In this document: piece by piece, positions 1,512 through 28,124 of the stretch
Numbering within the stretch: the stretch's first letter is position 1
Layout of the letters: every line of letters starts with the position of its first letter
Virus record (IMG/VR): IMGVR_UViG_3300017950_000045
Coordinates: 1-28,124 of that record
Strand: one strand, 5' to 3'
Origin: a virus
Length of the DNA stretch: 28,124 nt
Notes under the pieces: model-generated
The model's database searches: none
What the model was told of the DNA's origin: nothing
The model's input: the letters and a program-made list of their open reading frames with translations, nothing else
Made by a program: the position numbers and the translations under genes

Positions 1512-1754
1512 TCATAACTTATCATTTTTTAAAATAGTCTGTTTTAAACAATCGAGAACTAAAGAGTTATAGTCGATATTCGTCATATCTGAGAGACATT
1601 CCAAAATCCAAGCCCAATCCTCGAGCTTAATCTTTACTTCTCCGGTCAACATTCTATAGAGGCTCCGGATTCCGATTCCGGAATAATCGCTTAAGTTTTG
1701 TTTTGAGATGGAATATTTATCTAGATATTCTTGAACCCAATCTCCAAAAGTCAT
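1512..1754 (-). CDS. Small XRE-like helix-turn-helix protein (paralogue B)
   Basis: An 80-residue protein that is almost entirely a helix-turn-helix domain: FGDWVQEYLDKYSISKQNL (helices 1-2), YSGIGIRSLYRMLTGE (turn and recognition helix), then two C-terminal helices (WAWILECLSDM and LVLDCLKQTIL). It aligns along its length with the proteins at 38, 4736 and 26561. It starts at ATG 1754 with GGAG just upstream (AATGGAGATTTTATG). Its 5' leader contains three phased TGGGATAA repeats, so autoregulation through them is plausible. Its stop overlaps an out-of-frame ATG at 1515. This is the first gene of the leftward arm next to the candidate origin, so it may be a regulator or an origin-binding protein. 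Confidence 0.78.
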   Translation of the reverse strand: MTFGDWVQEYLDKYSISKQNLSDYSGIGIRSLYRMLTGEVKIKLEDWAWILECLSDMTNIDYNSLVLDCLKQTILKNDKL

Positions 1755-1765
1755 AAAATCTCCAT

Positions 1766-1796
1766 TGGGATAAAGTGGGATAAAAATGGGATAACC
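1766..1796 (-). repeat. Left iteron array: three TTTATCCCA-type repeats
   Basis: TGGGATAAA-type units start at 1766, 1776 and 1787, spaced 10 and 11 bp, or one DNA helical turn apart. Read on the minus strand they are TTATCCCA, the inverse orientation of the right array at 1987. They lie 12 bp upstream of the ATG of the HTH gene, overlapping its leader. Confidence 0.8.
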
Positions 1797-1986
1797 GACC
1801 TCTCTTTTATATCCGTTTTATCGAGCCTTCGTTTGTTTTGTATAGTTTATTTTGTATATTTCCAATTTTAAAAACTATATACTCTTAAATATATAACCTA
1901 AAAAGTTTTTTATATACATATTATATAATTTAGTATATAATACTATAAGAATCCTCCGAGTTTATGGGAGACTTAGAGAATTTTAC

Positions 1987-2051
1987 TATCCCACTTTTAT
2001 CCCACTTTATCCCACCTTTATCCCATATTTATCCCACCTTTATCCCACCTT
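1987..2051 (+). repeat. Right iteron array: six TATCCCAcNTT repeats
   Basis: Six direct TATCCCA units start at 1987, 1998, 2008, 2019, 2030 and 2041, with spacings 11, 10, 11, 11 and 11 bp. Most continue as CTT or CCTT; the fourth is TATCCCATATT. The array ends one base before the GGAG ribosome-binding site of the plus-strand gene at 2067. Spacing of about one helical turn places every unit on the same face of the DNA, as expected for cooperative binding of a protein. Confidence 0.88.
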
Positions 2052-2066
2052 TGGAGACAATATTCT

Positions 2067-2417
2067 ATGAATAAGACCTTTATAGACGTAATAAACACTC
2101 TTTTAAGAGGCATAAAAAGCGATACTCCCATAGACCCTATCGAGGCCGCTGAGCGATTCTCCGAGATGGTCTCTCGGTTAGATTGTGAGTTCCATCATAT
2201 CCAAGGCTCCGGATATGTTTATCACGATCAAAACTTAGAGATTATTGTCCTCTGGAGAGATGATGGAGTATATTTTAAAGACCATCAACTCAATATTCGA
2301 ACCCTTCCCATAATCCAAATGGCTTTAACGATTATCTCCGACTTGGATAACGAATATTTTAATTATGAGGAATCGGAGGAAGAGAGCTCCTCGGATACTG
2401 AAGATATATGGCTCTAA
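2067..2417 (+). CDS. Hypothetical acidic-tailed protein next to candidate origin
   Basis: A 116-residue protein I do not recognise. The first 90 residues look like a compact mixed domain (FIDVINTLLRGI helix, then strands around GSGYVYHD, LEIIVLWRDDGVYF). The last 20 are very acidic and end in hydrophobic residues: EESEEESSSDTEDIWL. An acidic C-terminal tail with a hydrophobic tip is typical of single-stranded DNA-binding proteins, and its position opposite the primase-helicase genes would suit that. However, no OB fold can be claimed from sequence alone. A DNA-mimic or anti-host role is also possible. The GGAG RBS at 2053-2056 follows directly on the iteron array. It is one of only three clear plus-strand genes here. 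Confidence 0.7.
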   Translation: MNKTFIDVINTLLRGIKSDTPIDPIEAAERFSEMVSRLDCEFHHIQGSGYVYHDQNLEIIVLWRDDGVYFKDHQLNIRTLPIIQMALTIISDLDNEYFNYEESEEESSSDTEDIWL

Positions 2418-2473: not shown

Positions 2474-3796
2474 TTATCTAAAGAATAACTTTCCTCCGCG
2501 AGTAATTTGTTCGAATTTCAAGTCGCGGCATATCTTAGAAATTCGTCTTGCGTTTCCCGAGTGCCTATGGGCTATAGGTAAATCCAATTCTTCCATAATC
2601 TCGGCCGTTGTCGCTCCGTTTCGTTTGGTTATGGCCTCGATTATTCCTTGACTCCAAGGATCGTCCACTAAGAACGATTTTTGATAGACTTTTAACTCCT
2701 CCTCCAAATCTCGAATAGAGCCATCATCCATCTCCAGCGAGGAAGGGAGCCACCACTCCTCTCCAGCTTTAAAGTGGTGAACGGCCTCGGCCCATATTTG
2801 ATCCCGGTTATCTAATATATATTTTAAATCAATCTTATCCATAATCTTGAAAATCCAAAACCTACGCTCCGGGCCATCGTCCAAGAATTGATAATCGTTT
2901 GTAGTTCCCACAAAACAAGTCAACCGCTTTCTCAATAATGGCATTTTTCCGTAACTCGGCCGATAAATATCCTCGGACGTAGTTAAAAATTGCTTTGCCA
3001 AGTTAGCCGATTTTCCTTGTAAATCTTTTAGTTCGGCCATCTCCCATATCCATGCTCCGGCTTGATGGATTTTCTCTAACGAGTCTTTGTGGCCGATTGG
3101 CATATCCGAGCGCGAGAACCATTCTCCTCCCAAAATCTCAAACGTGACGGACTTTCCACAACCTTTCGGGCCTACCAAAATCGGCATAGTATGAACCATC
3201 GAGCCTCGATTATAGACTCTTGAGACCATCGAGATAAAAGTCATGGCCGACATATATTGAATTAACAATCGAGTCGAATCCGTTGTCTCAGCCTTCCAAA
3301 CCTTCTCGGCTATCTCAGCGATTCGCCTCTCTCCATCCCACTCCAGCGATTCCAAATAGTTTAAAACTGGAGTAAATGGCCGGAGATGGCTAACTCGGAG
3401 GATAGCTCCCTCAATCATATTATTAGAGACCTTAAACCGATAACGCTCCTCCAAATCTAACCCGATTGTCTCATAATCTACAGTCTCAACCATTCTCCCA
3501 TTCAATAAGATTCTATCCGCTGACTCCCAATAACAAAGGCTCGAATATTTGGGGTCTACTTCCAAAATCAGATTTACATTTGAGCGATTATTCCTTGGAT
3601 AAATCGGAGCGGTTAAATTTCCATCCTTATCATACTTCCGAACGTGAGATAAACGAGCCCAAGTTCCCATATCGGCTCCCTCTGGAGGCTCCTCGAACCT
3701 ATCCAAACCGGCTCGCTCTACTTCCTCGTCAACGATGGCGATTCCCAATTCTCTAGCTAAGTCGATTAACTTCATTTTTTGTTCTTTCGATGTCAT
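2474..3796 (-). CDS. VirE-like / SF3-type replicative helicase (P-loop NTPase)
   Basis: A 440-residue protein of the virulence-associated E (VirE) family, a P-loop ATPase group found in phage and plasmid primase-helicases. Walker A is GPKGCGKS at about residues 209-216. It is followed by the family blocks GAWIWEMAELKDL (Walker B region) and VGTTNDYQFLDDGPERRFW (sensor and arginine-finger region). The N-terminus has no primase motifs, because that activity is in the upstream gene. The C-terminus (about 385-440) looks like a winged helix. The ATG at 3796 overlaps the primase stop as ATGA and has AGAGGA upstream. It likely unwinds DNA at the candidate origin just to the left, and ends at the terminator at 2427. 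Confidence 0.88.
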   Translation of the reverse strand: MTSKEQKMKLIDLARELGIAIVDEEVERAGLDRFEEPPEGADMGTWARLSHVRKYDKDGNLTAPIYPRNNRSNVNLILEVDPKYSSLCYWESADRILLNGRMVETVDYETIGLDLEERYRFKVSNNMIEGAILRVSHLRPFTPVLNYLESLEWDGERRIAEIAEKVWKAETTDSTRLLIQYMSAMTFISMVSRVYNRGSMVHTMPILVGPKGCGKSVTFEILGGEWFSRSDMPIGHKDSLEKIHQAGAWIWEMAELKDLQGKSANLAKQFLTTSEDIYRPSYGKMPLLRKRLTCFVGTTNDYQFLDDGPERRFWIFKIMDKIDLKYILDNRDQIWAEAVHHFKAGEEWWLPSSLEMDDGSIRDLEEELKVYQKSFLVDDPWSQGIIEAITKRNGATTAEIMEELDLPIAHRHSGNARRISKICRDLKFEQITRGGKLFFR

Positions 3797-4656
3797 AATA
3801 AATCCTCTATACTTCCATACCAACTACATTTATTTTTTCTTGTGCAAGTTGCCCAAAATGTCGAATTCGGAACATTTAAATCTATTGTAAAATATACCGA
3901 TTGTTCTCCGCATTGAGGACAATTTATTTTATGGACATAGGAGCCCATAATCACTCCTCCCGATTGATAAGCTATCTTTTGACGAACGGAATATTCTCTC
4001 AGCAAGTCATTATATTTCCTCGGAGCGTCTTTGGCCGGAGGAGTCCATTTTTTATCCTCCTTCTTTGGGAGTTTTATATCTTTGTAATAAAGCGACAATG
4101 GAGCTCCGATAAAATAATAAGTCTGAAGGAGATTATATGGAGACATAAAATGGCTTTTATCGGTTATATCGCTCATCGGATAAGCGAATCTAAAATAGAC
4201 TCTCGCTATATCTTTTAAAGCCTTTAAATCCGGCTCTCCAACTCCTACCACGTCATTCCAAAGTCTTAAACCGGCTCTCCAACCCTTTTCCCAATCCTCG
4301 GCCTTTATTGGCTCATACAATGGCAAAATAAGACGATACTTGGGAGTAGTTATTGAATGGCTCATGCTGGAATGCGCGAAAACAGTCATTCCCGATTGAG
4401 CGAATAATCTCCACGTCTCAATATTCGTTAATCCATCGTCTATATCAAACACAAGACAAGAGATGGAGACGGCATGCGCCATTGAACGCGAGCCGTTAAA
4501 GGTAGTTGGAGACCATAAAGGCAAATCTAATTTAGCCTTCTCTCCATTGGAGACGGCCGTTAAAAGACCTCTCCGTAATTCGTCTACAGAACCCTCGAAA
4601 TTCTTTGGATTCTTTTGGCGAATGTTATCAAATAATGATATATTGTATTTAATCAT
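3793..4656 (-). CDS. Archaeo-eukaryotic-type (AEP) DNA primase with zinc ribbon
   Basis: A 287-residue protein. The AEP catalytic signature is visible: motif I VFDIDDG (D71, D73), motif II around SSMSH with H100, a KYRLILPL strand (R108), and an acidic D149 in KDIARVYF as candidate motif III. A C-terminal zinc ribbon follows: CPQC at 246-249 and C271/C277 within TCTRKNKCSWYG. Such primases lay down primers and are often fused to the helicase. Here the two are separate but coupled by a 4-base overlap. The ATG at 4656 has TGGAG six bases upstream. Only a short gap containing a hairpin (4689-4727) separates it from the regulator gene upstream, so its expression may depend on readthrough. Confidence 0.82.
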   Translation of the reverse strand: MIKYNISLFDNIRQKNPKNFEGSVDELRRGLLTAVSNGEKAKLDLPLWSPTTFNGSRSMAHAVSISCLVFDIDDGLTNIETWRLFAQSGMTVFAHSSMSHSITTPKYRLILPLYEPIKAEDWEKGWRAGLRLWNDVVGVGEPDLKALKDIARVYFRFAYPMSDITDKSHFMSPYNLLQTYYFIGAPLSLYYKDIKLPKKEDKKWTPPAKDAPRKYNDLLREYSVRQKIAYQSGGVIMGSYVHKINCPQCGEQSVYFTIDLNVPNSTFWATCTRKNKCSWYGSIEDLL

Positions 4657-4735: not shown

Positions 4736-5218
4736 TTACATATATTTGTTAATCTCTAACAATACTTGAGATAACTCTCGGCCGGAGATGTCGCTAACAA
4801 TTCGAGCGATTTTAAATAGATTCCGGCTATCTGGAATTCCATTATTATTACACCAATTCGAGATAGTCACTCTTGAGACCTTCAAATAATCTCCCATTTT
4901 TGCTTGAGTCAAATCATATCTCGTAATTTGTTTAGAGAACCATTGGCCGAATTGGTCTCCTCTCCCTTGGAATTCATCGTATTTCTGAATAACCCAATTC
5001 TCGGCCGCCAAATCAGAATAGAACTCCGAGCTATAAACCTCATTATTCCACTCTATAACTCCTTTGGACTTCCAACACGTTTGATAACTATCCCAATAAG
5101 TCGAGACGGCTCCAATATTGCGGCCATTGAATTTCACGTCATTAACTCTATTTTGAGACTTGGCCTTAACTCGGCCCGATTGTCTCTCCATATCCCTTCC
5201 AGTCTTATTTAATCTCAT
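4736..5218 (-). CDS. Two-domain XRE-like regulator (paralogue C)
   Basis: A 160-residue protein. The C-terminal 75 residues hold a helix-turn-helix: FGQWFSKQITRYDLTQAKM, then YLKVSRVTISNWCNNNG (turn and recognition helix), then LFKIARIVSDI and LSQVLLEI. It matches the proteins at 38, 1512 and 26561. The N-terminal 85 residues are extra: a basic stretch (RQSGRVKAKSQNR) and an aromatic, strand-rich part (VSTYWDSYQTCWKSKG, AAENWVIQKYDEF) that may sense a ligand or contact DNA. I do not recognise it. Start ATG 5218 has GAGGAG upstream and forms an ATGA overlap with the preceding gene. As the longest member of the family, placed just before the replication genes, it is the best candidate for an early regulator. 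Confidence 0.8.
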   Translation of the reverse strand: MRLNKTGRDMERQSGRVKAKSQNRVNDVKFNGRNIGAVSTYWDSYQTCWKSKGVIEWNNEVYSSEFYSDLAAENWVIQKYDEFQGRGDQFGQWFSKQITRYDLTQAKMGDYLKVSRVTISNWCNNNGIPDSRNLFKIARIVSDISGRELSQVLLEINKYM

Positions 5219-24605: not shown

Positions 24606-26042
24606 TTAACCTCTTAATTTTAATTTAGCTTGTTTTGGGCTTTGATACTGAACACTAATAATCTCTATTGTAGCATATCTTAAAGCGTCTATCGCATGTT
24701 TCCACTCGGAGAGCGTATCCATTCCGCCATTTGATTTCATACTCCAATACTTTAACGATTTTATTATTCTTTGGGCCCTTGGGAATATCTGGAATCTACT
24801 ATCACACATTAACTCATGCAACGATTGACAACCATAATAAACGGAATATTTAGGTTTATAGGCCGTTCGGATATGGAATGGGAGTTTCCCTTTGGGATAG
24901 CCTAAGACATGAGCAAAGGCCGCCATTAACATCGTATTCGACATTCGGCCTCCGTTATTTTTACTCCCACCATGGCTCCGGTCTCCAGTCCATCGCTGAA
25001 TATGAGCCAACTCAAGTCCGGCCCTTTTAATCATCGCGATAATACCCTTAGCATGATTCTCGGCCGAATCTCCGGAGGCTACGTATTCGTCAACTACATA
25101 AACGGCCGGCCGCTTTGAGTCGGTTATATCAACTGCACATAGAACCGCTACTTGGGAGGCTACATCGTGACCATGGTCTATCCCTATCGACCAAACATAT
25201 CTTCTATTGGGGTCGGGAGTCAAGTCCGAAATTAAATCGTCTGTAAACTTCTCGAATATTCTTCCCTCCGGAATTCCAACGTCCCAATCTCCAGCCATAC
25301 GAGCCGCTCTATCTATTCCAAGATAACTCCGAGATAACTCCTCTATCTCCTCCTCGCTCATCATGGGCCGCTTAACTCCTTTTGGAGTTGTATTCTCGAC
25401 ATTCATAACCCCAACATGCTCCGAGATAATTCCATTTTTGACCATTTCTTTAAGATAATCCACCGGAGCTCCAATGGGAGTCATAGTGAATAACATTCGG
25501 CCATTTGGTCTCCTCGTTATACGAGCTCTAAGTTCTCCAAATAGAGCCGGAGGAGGAGGCTCGTCAATCCATATAAAATCTACAGTCCCGGAGGCCACTC
25601 CGAGAGTTCCTTGATTCGTAGTTTTAAAACGGACTATCGAGCCATTCTTAAACTGAACCACCGGAGCTCCGGTTCCTCGATAGCCCTTGGCCGGAGAGAA
25701 TTCTACACTCGGATGTAATTCGTTCTTTGGAACTAAGTCGTGAAATTTGGCCATAATCGTTCTGGATTGTTCCCACGAATGGCAAATAACCCAAGCTTCG
25801 ATAGGAGCCGGAGGAACCGGCTTATATGGAGAGTAGCCGAGAACATGGCATATCGTTTCATAGGAGCCACAAAATGTCTTGCCAATTTGATTCCCTCCTC
25901 TCAATAAAACGAGCCTCGAGGAGTCTTTTAATACTTGCTCTTGAACCTCCGTAGGAGAGAAGAATCTTAATGGGTTGGTTTGGTGCTCTACGAGTAATTT
26001 ATTTGTGTTATTGGCTATCTTTTTTAACTTAGAGAGGCTCAT
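24606..26042 (-). CDS. terL: Large terminase (ATPase and nuclease)
   Basis: A 478-residue packaging motor. Walker A is RGGNQIGKT (about 48-56), and Walker B is FIWIDEP (D160, E161). The C-terminal RNase H-fold nuclease has acidic positions D289 (SIGIDHGHD), D354 (TGDRSHGG) and D452 (HAIDALRYA), the normal order for terminase nucleases. It powers DNA translocation into the prohead and cuts the genome. The start at 26042 has GGAGAGA upstream and overlaps the ThyX-like gene by 14 bp. Its partner is probably the TerS-like protein at 27514, with three genes between, an unusual separation. Confidence 0.92.
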   Translation of the reverse strand: MSLSKLKKIANNTNKLLVEHQTNPLRFFSPTEVQEQVLKDSSRLVLLRGGNQIGKTFCGSYETICHVLGYSPYKPVPPAPIEAWVICHSWEQSRTIMAKFHDLVPKNELHPSVEFSPAKGYRGTGAPVVQFKNGSIVRFKTTNQGTLGVASGTVDFIWIDEPPPPALFGELRARITRRPNGRMLFTMTPIGAPVDYLKEMVKNGIISEHVGVMNVENTTPKGVKRPMMSEEEIEELSRSYLGIDRAARMAGDWDVGIPEGRIFEKFTDDLISDLTPDPNRRYVWSIGIDHGHDVASQVAVLCAVDITDSKRPAVYVVDEYVASGDSAENHAKGIIAMIKRAGLELAHIQRWTGDRSHGGSKNNGGRMSNTMLMAAFAHVLGYPKGKLPFHIRTAYKPKYSVYYGCQSLHELMCDSRFQIFPRAQRIIKSLKYWSMKSNGGMDTLSEWKHAIDALRYATIEIISVQYQSPKQAKLKLRG

Positions 26043-26586
26043 ATTCTCTCCAGTTGATAACTCTATATCGGCATATCTGGAGGAGAGTCTCTTTTAACTC
26101 CTTCTCCAATGGGATTCGAGATGGGAGCCTTAAATAATCTCGGAGATTCTTTAAACTGATTGAGGCCATATATCGAATATATTGATTTTGAGGAAGTACC
26201 ATAGCGGCCGAGGACTCGTCTATTCCTTCCTCGATTAACTGATTAAATAGATTAAAAGACTTCTCACAATGGGAATAAACATCGTCCCGGATATGATAAC
26301 CTCTCCTCGATTTATTGTTATTCCAAAAATAGACATTATCATCGGAGTCCTTAGCCTTAAATCCTTTTGGGACATAGAACCGAGGCTCTTTATCTAGGTA
26401 AAATCTACAAAAGCCCCAAGAGCGATCCTCGAGATGGAGACGAGATAAAAAAACCGGAATATCGAATCGGAACGTTATCGAACAACTATTTAAATAGTCT
26501 ATATCGGACATAAACTCCGATAATCCATTATGGCTCAAATATTCTATAAAGACTATCTCATTAAACTCTACCATTATCTCTCTCAT
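26029..26586 (-). CDS. ThyX-like protein with degenerate active site
   Basis: A 185-residue protein that appears to have the flavin-dependent thymidylate synthase fold. The C-terminal half matches ThyX in order: FNLFNQLIEEGIDESSAAMV, LPQNQYIRYMASISLKNLRD, then YLRLPSRIPLEKELKETL. The N-terminal part has FIEYLSHNG and SITFRFDIPVFLSRLHLEDR. Yet key residues are missing: the RHR motif is EDR (about 53-55), the EARxVLP arginine is alanine (SSAAMVLP), the LR that binds dUMP reads LP, and no S-x-x-R-Y motif follows. Catalysis is therefore unlikely. It may sense flavin or nucleotide, or have been recruited for packaging. The alignment is from memory of the family. An in-frame ATG at 26574 has a better SD (GAGAGAG) than 26586. 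Confidence 0.6.
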   Translation of the reverse strand: MREIMVEFNEIVFIEYLSHNGLSEFMSDIDYLNSCSITFRFDIPVFLSRLHLEDRSWGFCRFYLDKEPRFYVPKGFKAKDSDDNVYFWNNNKSRRGYHIRDDVYSHCEKSFNLFNQLIEEGIDESSAAMVLPQNQYIRYMASISLKNLRDYLRLPSRIPLEKELKETLLQICRYRVINWREYEPL

Positions 26587-26881: not shown

Positions 26882-27517
26882 TCAAAATAAAGTTAGTTGT
26901 CTTTGATGGGCCTCAAGTCTTTTCGAGGCCATCTCAAAATAATCCGGGTCTAACTCAAAAGCCGTTAAATCAAATTTCATATCGTGACAAGCTATGGCAA
27001 TAGAGCCGGAGCCGAGATGGGTATCTAAGATTTTATCTCCCCTCTTTGCGTACTTATCGAGGAGCCATCTATAGAGAGCCGTTGGCTTTTGGGTCGGATG
27101 AATCCTCGGTTGTTTTTTAATAGGCCCTGTTCCTTTTAGATGATGCCATGTAAATTTTCTGACTGATGTCTCAAAACTAGTCCATGCCAATTCACAATCG
27201 GCCATATTATTTCCACCATTATTTTTATCCCATACTAACATACATCTAGTATTAGATAAATAATCTAAAAAATAATTTCCTCCCCAAATAATTTGATTTT
27301 TGGAGACTCTCATTAACTCTTTAAAATATTCTGGAGATGGAATCTCATTATCCCAATCTTTATTAACTGATGATATAATACAATCTGTTTTAAATCCTGT
27401 TTTTAATTGGCTAGTTATTTGTATCCCATAGGGAGGATCGACTATGGCCAAGTCAAAACTATTATCGGCCATCTCTCGCATGGCCTCCAAACAATCTCGA
27501 TTATATAGATTTATCAT
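26882..27517 (-). CDS. Orphan DNA methyltransferase (N6-adenine / N4-cytosine type)
   Basis: A 211-residue methyltransferase of the class with the catalytic motif first: DPPYG at 27-31 and the SAM-binding motif near the end (LDTHLGSGS, about 164-172), with HPTQKPTALY (140-149) between, a strong family marker. It would transfer a methyl group from S-adenosylmethionine to adenine N6 or cytosine N4. DPPY suggests adenine more often. No restriction enzyme is seen, so it is an orphan enzyme that may protect phage DNA or mark packaging sites. ATG 27517 overlaps the TerS-like stop by four bases (ATGA). Confidence 0.9.
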   Translation of the reverse strand: MINLYNRDCLEAMREMADNSFDLAIVDPPYGIQITSQLKTGFKTDCIISSVNKDWDNEIPSPEYFKELMRVSKNQIIWGGNYFLDYLSNTRCMLVWDKNNGGNNMADCELAWTSFETSVRKFTWHHLKGTGPIKKQPRIHPTQKPTALYRWLLDKYAKRGDKILDTHLGSGSIAIACHDMKFDLTAFELDPDYFEMASKRLEAHQRQLTLF

Positions 27518-28065
27518 TCTCCGGCTCCTTTGAATGGAATAACATTGGAATAGTCTCCTTCGATGATGTCCATTAACTTATCTTTGAGGAGAGGAGGAAG
27601 GCCGGCCACCGCTATCGCTATTTGGTGAAGAACCTCGTTCGGGTCTGTTAATCCCTCTAACTCCTCGCTCTCTCTTTTCATTGCGATATATTCGTCATGA
27701 ACCTGTAAATGGAGCCGGTGAAATTGTGGAAGGGAATGGAAGGAACCTCGCTCTCTGGTCTCTTGAATATCATCGCTTATCTCTACAAGTTTATTCCGTC
27801 TAAATAGTATCGGGTCATCATCTAAGGCCATATTTAAAACCGGAGTTCCCATCTTTGGAGATGGCTTGGCCTCCTCGATTATCTCTTGAGCTCTATTGGG
27901 ATCGAATTTCTTTTGGCCTTTACAAATTCTGCCTATCGTTGTTTTATGAACTTGATATTCGTTGGCCAAGTCTTGATAGGTACAATCGCCATTTTTATAT
28001 TTATCAATAATCTCGGCTCGCTCCTTCTCGGTTAACGCGCCTCTCTTTGTATTAGTTCGTCCCAT
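27514..28065 (-). CDS. terS: Putative small terminase / HTH DNA-binding protein
   Basis: A 183-residue protein. The N-terminus is a homeodomain-like helix-turn-helix: LTEKERAEIIDKYKNGDCTY, then QDLANEYQVHKTTIGRICKG. A middle helical region (HRLHLQVHDEYIAMKRESEE) and a C-terminal helix (VLHQIAIAVAGLPPLLKDKL) could form the ring and the terminase-contact part. Small terminases have exactly such an N-terminal HTH that binds the packaging site. The gene is the first of the packaging operon and next to the genome end. The alternative is a transcription regulator. ATG 28065 follows CAGGATAGACG, very like the start of the gene at 409. Confidence 0.65.
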   Translation of the reverse strand: MGRTNTKRGALTEKERAEIIDKYKNGDCTYQDLANEYQVHKTTIGRICKGQKKFDPNRAQEIIEEAKPSPKMGTPVLNMALDDDPILFRRNKLVEISDDIQETRERGSFHSLPQFHRLHLQVHDEYIAMKRESEELEGLTDPNEVLHQIAIAVAGLPPLLKDKLMDIIEGDYSNVIPFKGAGE

Positions 28066-28114: not shown

Positions 28115-28124
28115 GTCAAAACAC
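28115..28124. repeat. 10-bp terminal direct repeat, right copy
   Basis: GTCAAAACAC, identical to bases 1-10. It lies 50 bp upstream of the putative terS start. On the minus strand it reads GTGTTTTGAC, so a TTGACC -35-like element spans 28114-28119, but no good -10 follows at the right spacing. Confidence 0.6.

Follow-up and report, generated by a model that had tools for sequence, protein, structure and literature searches.

Opposed iterons around an AT-rich core near a VapE-family helicase gene: a probable SaPI/PICI-type replication origin in a tailed phage genome

What purpose is served by two opposed arrays of a short repeat that enclose AT-rich DNA and lie between two divergent genes? This question is raised by positions 1766 to 2051 of the virus record IMGVR_UViG_3300017950_000045 from IMG/VR, which was analysed over its whole length of 28,124 bp and is hereafter called the window. 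A preliminary description of the locus, made from the letters of the sequence, proposed either a phage origin with iterons or a large operator switch controlling two divergent genes, and added that replication and transcription could be coupled there. The analysis summarized here indicates that the element is very probably a phage replication origin of the type known from Staphylococcus aureus pathogenicity islands (SaPIs) and phage-inducible chromosomal islands (PICIs), in which opposed iteron sets surround a melting site near a self-loading helicase. This reading is based on how the element is built, on its return in five relatives, on the homology of the neighbouring VapE-family helicase to a SaPI initiator, and on the presence of DnaA boxes in two related origins.

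The element comprises two iteron sets and the core that they enclose. Iteron set 1 (1766-1793, minus strand), distal to the VapE gene, contains three copies of TATCCCA at 1766, 1776 and 1787, spaced 10 and 11 bp, whereas iteron set 2 (1987-2047, plus strand; direct-repeat family D1), proximal to the VapE gene, contains six copies at 1987, 1998, 2008, 2019, 2030 and 2041, with successive spacings of 11, 10, 11, 11 and 11 bp. The three left-hand and six right-hand repeats of the preliminary description are exact matches at all nine positions. On the whole contig TATCCCA occurs 17 times versus 5.1 expected, and nine of these copies fall inside a single intergenic region of 312 bp. When that region was dinucleotide-shuffled 2000 times, the commonest 7-mer never exceeded four copies; clustering by chance is thus excluded. 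The core between the sets, previously estimated at about 190 bp, is a putative DNA unwinding element without strand assignment (1794-1986) that measures 193 bp and 24.4% GC, its inner part (1840-1955) having a GC content of 14.7%. A calculation of duplex stability, which had been proposed as a check, shows that no other 100 bp on the contig are less stable than a stretch within this core, at 1848-1947 (z = 4.7; runner-up, z = 3.5). On the outer side, as also recorded earlier for the two start codons, each array adjoins the ribosome-binding site of its flanking gene. The left-hand gene (1512-1754, minus strand) encodes an 80-aa Cro/C1-type helix-turn-helix (HTH) protein with weak matches to Pfam HTH_60/HTH_26 and to PHROG repressors, and its start adjoins set 1. 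The right-hand gene (2067-2417, plus strand), whose ATG is preceded by GGAG and whose start adjoins set 2, lies between the element and the VapE gene and encodes a 116-aa protein of no known family, with neither a Pfam nor a PHROG match.

The helicase gene itself (2474-3823, minus strand) directs its 3′ end toward the element and encodes a VapE-family AAA+ protein (Pfam VapE-like_dom, 2.7e-55), the proposed initiator. A profile of 39 VapE family members aligned with 7PDS over nearly the whole length (E 2.1e-111), and the same entry, titled 'The structure of PriRep1 with dsDNA', was the top solved structure (E 9.4e-26) in a Foldseek search with the AlphaFold2 model of VapE (pLDDT 90.6). Judged by sequence and predicted fold, VapE is a relative of the SaPI initiator PriRep1, and on homology it can be placed among the self-loading AAA+ helicases of the PriRep kind. 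The C terminus of the model has the order helix-helix-helix-strand-strand and is predicted to form a winged helix at about residues 382-440 of the folded 440-aa form; a search with the C-terminal 95 aa alone returned no match. In SaPIs, the C-terminal domain of Rep recognizes iterons that immediately follow the gene for Rep (PMC7581432), and from this known mechanism of the family we infer that VapE reads the TATCCCA iterons. In the proposed scheme, VapE would bind the iterons via its C-terminal winged helix, the 10-11-bp spacing would align the bound domains along one side of the DNA, two head-to-head hexamers would be loaded by the two opposed sets, and the AT-rich core between them would melt. 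Synthesis would then be begun by the adjacent primase-like protein (3793-4656, minus strand; PHROG DNA primase, 6.7e-7), which is encoded in the same operon orientation as VapE.

If the element is an origin, does its layout recur elsewhere? An alignment-based pattern scan of viral contigs identified VapE relatives at 36-48% identity, while scans with one protein at a time (VapE, the HTH protein or the 116-aa protein) found none, and a DNA similarity search of phages using the repeat region gave no match. Five diverged relatives were compared (G001, G003, G005, G007 and G008). In G003, G007 and G008 (27-28 kb) the structural genes are collinear with those of the window at roughly 25-50% identity, and G001 (15.5 kb) and G005 (8.3 kb) are shorter contigs. 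In all five, the contig's own least stable 100 bp coincides with an opposed repeat element 3′ of VapE, and the phasing inside the repeat runs is 10-11 bp. The iteron word is TGACAGAT in G003 and G005, TGGACAT in G007 and G008, and TAACAGRTA, as a weaker set, in G001; in G003 (28.4 kb), all 12 copies of TGACAGAT on the contig are inside the element. The elements of G007 and G008 each contain six exact DnaA boxes, which are every exact box on the respective contig, providing independent evidence that replication starts there in these relatives. The exact boxes form arrays at 12-bp spacing that directly adjoin the phage iterons (G008 27683-27805, locus L244; G007 26032-26154, locus L246), so that in these two phages host DnaA may act together with an initiator of the phage. 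The phage of the window has no exact DnaA box.

A wider survey covered 106 VapE clusters (70% identity) and scored opposed 7-mer arrays (score at least 5) within 1.2 kb 3′ of VapE. Such arrays were present in 29 of the 106 clusters, the window ranking among the four best, a count that is an underestimate because the score requires exact 7-mers and that comes from clusters that are not fully independent. The controls gave 3/99 upstream, 6/100 further downstream, 3/107 inside the gene and 14/2120 in shuffles, and opposed arrays are therefore strongly enriched 3′ of VapE across the clusters. Recurrence in five diverged relatives and in many VapE-helicase elements, together with the DnaA-box clusters of two relatives, supports the origin that the preliminary description had offered as one of its two options. 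A centromere-like partition site of the ParR/TubR type, a kind of site that also uses arrays of 10-12-bp iterons, with similar phasing and array size, is very improbable, given that no partition ATPase or tubulin-like gene was recognized among the proteins scanned and that the element follows the replication helicase in relatives.

The word TATCCCA itself is also found in other settings. A scan for phased TATCCCA triples returned 59 viral stretches, none of which encodes a VapE relative, and the control word TACTCCA in the same scan returned at least 120 stretches, mostly with 12-bp spacing; for both reasons these stretches were rejected as evidence of conservation. In a family of viral contigs, 11-bp units of the type TATCCCAYGGC are repeated in tandem in long, mostly intergenic arrays of up to 15 copies, with no VapE relative found on the loci (L005-L008, L012, L019-L021, L023, L027, L033-L037, L040, L042, L044-L046, L049, L051, L053-L055 and L059). 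Short TATCCCAA arrays with 10-12-bp spacing occur in the unrelated viral contigs L018, L026, L039, L043, L050 and L061, where several closely precede promoter-like sequences, and may be operators of another regulator.

The location between divergent genes raises the further question of whether the arrays instead serve transcription. As a large operator, they would be bound by the 80-aa HTH protein or another phage HTH, which would repress the two divergent genes by way of one AT-rich promoter region serving both. Only about 12 bp separate set 1 from the start of the HTH gene, and about 20 bp separate set 2 from the start of the unrelated gene; the core contains a sigma-70-like promoter match (TATACA-17-TATAAT, 10/12; 1913-1941, plus strand) directed at the right-hand gene, which derives from a consensus scan only and alone is not above background. 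Furthermore, G001 has a 53% identical homologue of the HTH protein, whose start is likewise next to the origin region. However, this is the only relative in which such a homologue adjoins the element: G003, full-length and with clear arrays, has none, and G005, G007 and G008 have only weak matches away from the element. G001, despite its homologue, lacks a TATCCCA array, its repeats resembling the words of G003 and G005. Arrays and HTH gene are thus not conserved together, and the absence or misplacement of the homologue in relatives, along with the different repeat word of G001, favours the helicase as the reader; on these comparisons the adjacent HTH gene is a poor candidate. Because the arrays persist without an adjoining divergent gene pair or HTH gene in G003 (L072), G005 (L074), G007 and G008, and because the DnaA boxes of G007 and G008 point to replication, the operator switch cannot be upheld as the main function and is improbable.

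The same geometry bears on two further readings. The repeats lie in sense orientation in both leaders, beside both ribosome-binding sites, so that an RNA leader element, with a regulator binding UAUCCCA repeats in both transcripts, can be imagined. Nevertheless, sense orientation is automatic for opposed arrays around divergent genes, an Rfam search gave no match for the element, and in G003 neither array has a gene start directly beside it, leaving this reading scarcely credible. Alternatively, the origin might double as an autoregulatory switch, in which array-bound initiator blocks both flanking leaders and makes firing and transcription mutually exclusive. Since both arrays abut the ribosome-binding sites, any promoter of the flanking genes must lie in the core; yet in G003, G005, G007 and G008 the arrays do not adjoin two start codons in this way, and the arrangement is therefore no general feature of the element, which makes the switch rather unlikely. 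An effect of initiator binding on both leaders is possible in this genome, as a local addition at most. The coupling of replication and transcription envisaged earlier is accordingly not supported as the main function and not conserved, and may be a local feature at most.

Several observations weigh against the assignment of the element as a VapE-dependent origin. The word TATCCCA is not kept in the nearest relatives; of the repeats that the preliminary description proposed to look for in related phages, it is the opposed, phased layout that is retained and not the word. Although it lies 3′ of VapE, the element is separated from that gene by about 430 bp, which include the 116-aa open reading frame, whereas in G003 it is directly 3′. 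Over 28 loci, Mantel tests gave no significant correlation of iteron similarity with that of the helicase C terminus (r = 0.08, p = 0.086) or of the helicase core (r = 0.12, p = 0.063); the two closest pairs in this comparison have iterons in common. No exact DnaA box (TTATCCACA) occurs anywhere in the window, which thus has no DnaA-box cluster of the kind that marks a DnaA-dependent origin. Finally, GC skew, proposed earlier as a check, is uninformative: computed across the region, it shows no inflection at the element and is negative on either side (-0.18 and -0.19). As it tracks gene orientation, it was discarded as origin evidence.

How does the proposed origin compare with known systems? 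As in the origins of SaPIbov1, SaPI5 and Escherichia coli PICIs, AT-rich DNA flanked by two iteron sets lies 3′ of the gene for a self-loading initiator helicase with a C-terminal DNA-binding domain; here self-loading is attributed to the helicase by homology, and the domain is predicted. Unlike those origins, the element has a different iteron word, is separated from the helicase gene by one small gene, and belongs to a complete tailed phage, not to a satellite: the window encodes the large terminase, portal, major head protein, a tape-measure-like protein and endolysin, whereas a PICI does not bring along all the structural genes that it needs. The related helicase Cch2 of SCCmec (staphylococcal cassette chromosome mec) also uses a C-terminal domain to bind short direct repeats, which lie downstream of the gene encoding it (PMC7581432), but its site consists of three 5-nt iterons and not of two opposed sets around a long AT-rich core. 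Viral origins of the simian virus 40 (SV40) type likewise have opposed recognition repeats around a melting region and two head-to-head hexamers (an analogy drawn in PMC9894130), although that virus is unrelated and uses an N-terminal DNA-binding domain. Further counterparts are Listeria phage LWP01, Synechococcus phage S-LBS1 and Marinobacter phage PS3, named phages with opposed arrays right behind the VapE gene, in which, however, primase and helicase form one long protein and the iteron words differ. Phage origins of a similar general sort may already have been described, for example in Streptococcus thermophilus phages.

Origins of this kind are familiar from SaPIs and PICIs, and a 2018 paper described the layout as unique to PICIs (PMC6092414); its probable occurrence in full-size tailed phages extends it beyond that limit. 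The published restriction to PICIs is thereby weakened, which bears on the exchange of replication modules between satellites and phages. The origins of most environmental phages are unknown, and the combination of opposed 10-11-bp-phased repeats with the least stable stretch 3′ of VapE provides a sequence rule that pinpoints candidate origins here and in many phages. Tentatively, and with more doubt than confidence, we would extend this in two directions at once: the divergent-gene placement might let a single site switch the phage from early transcription over to replication, as filled iterons open the core and shut both leaders, and SaPI/PICI-type origins might be not satellite-specific but standard for a large class of VapE-helicase tailed phages, with fast-changing iteron words.

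With regard to the rest of the window, its first 10 bases (1-10) are identical to its last 10 (28115-28124), GTCAAAACAC, ends of a kind shown by none of the relatives' contigs. The identical termini and the size, relatives being 27-28 kb, suggest a complete genome with short cohesive ends. A divergent ThyX-like protein (26029-26586) overlaps the start of the large terminase gene, and a DNA methylase gene lies nearby (26882-27517). Two or three small Cro/C1-type HTH proteins are distributed across the early region (38-409, 1512-1754 and 4736-5218), and three small HTH-like genes are likewise present in the relative L070.
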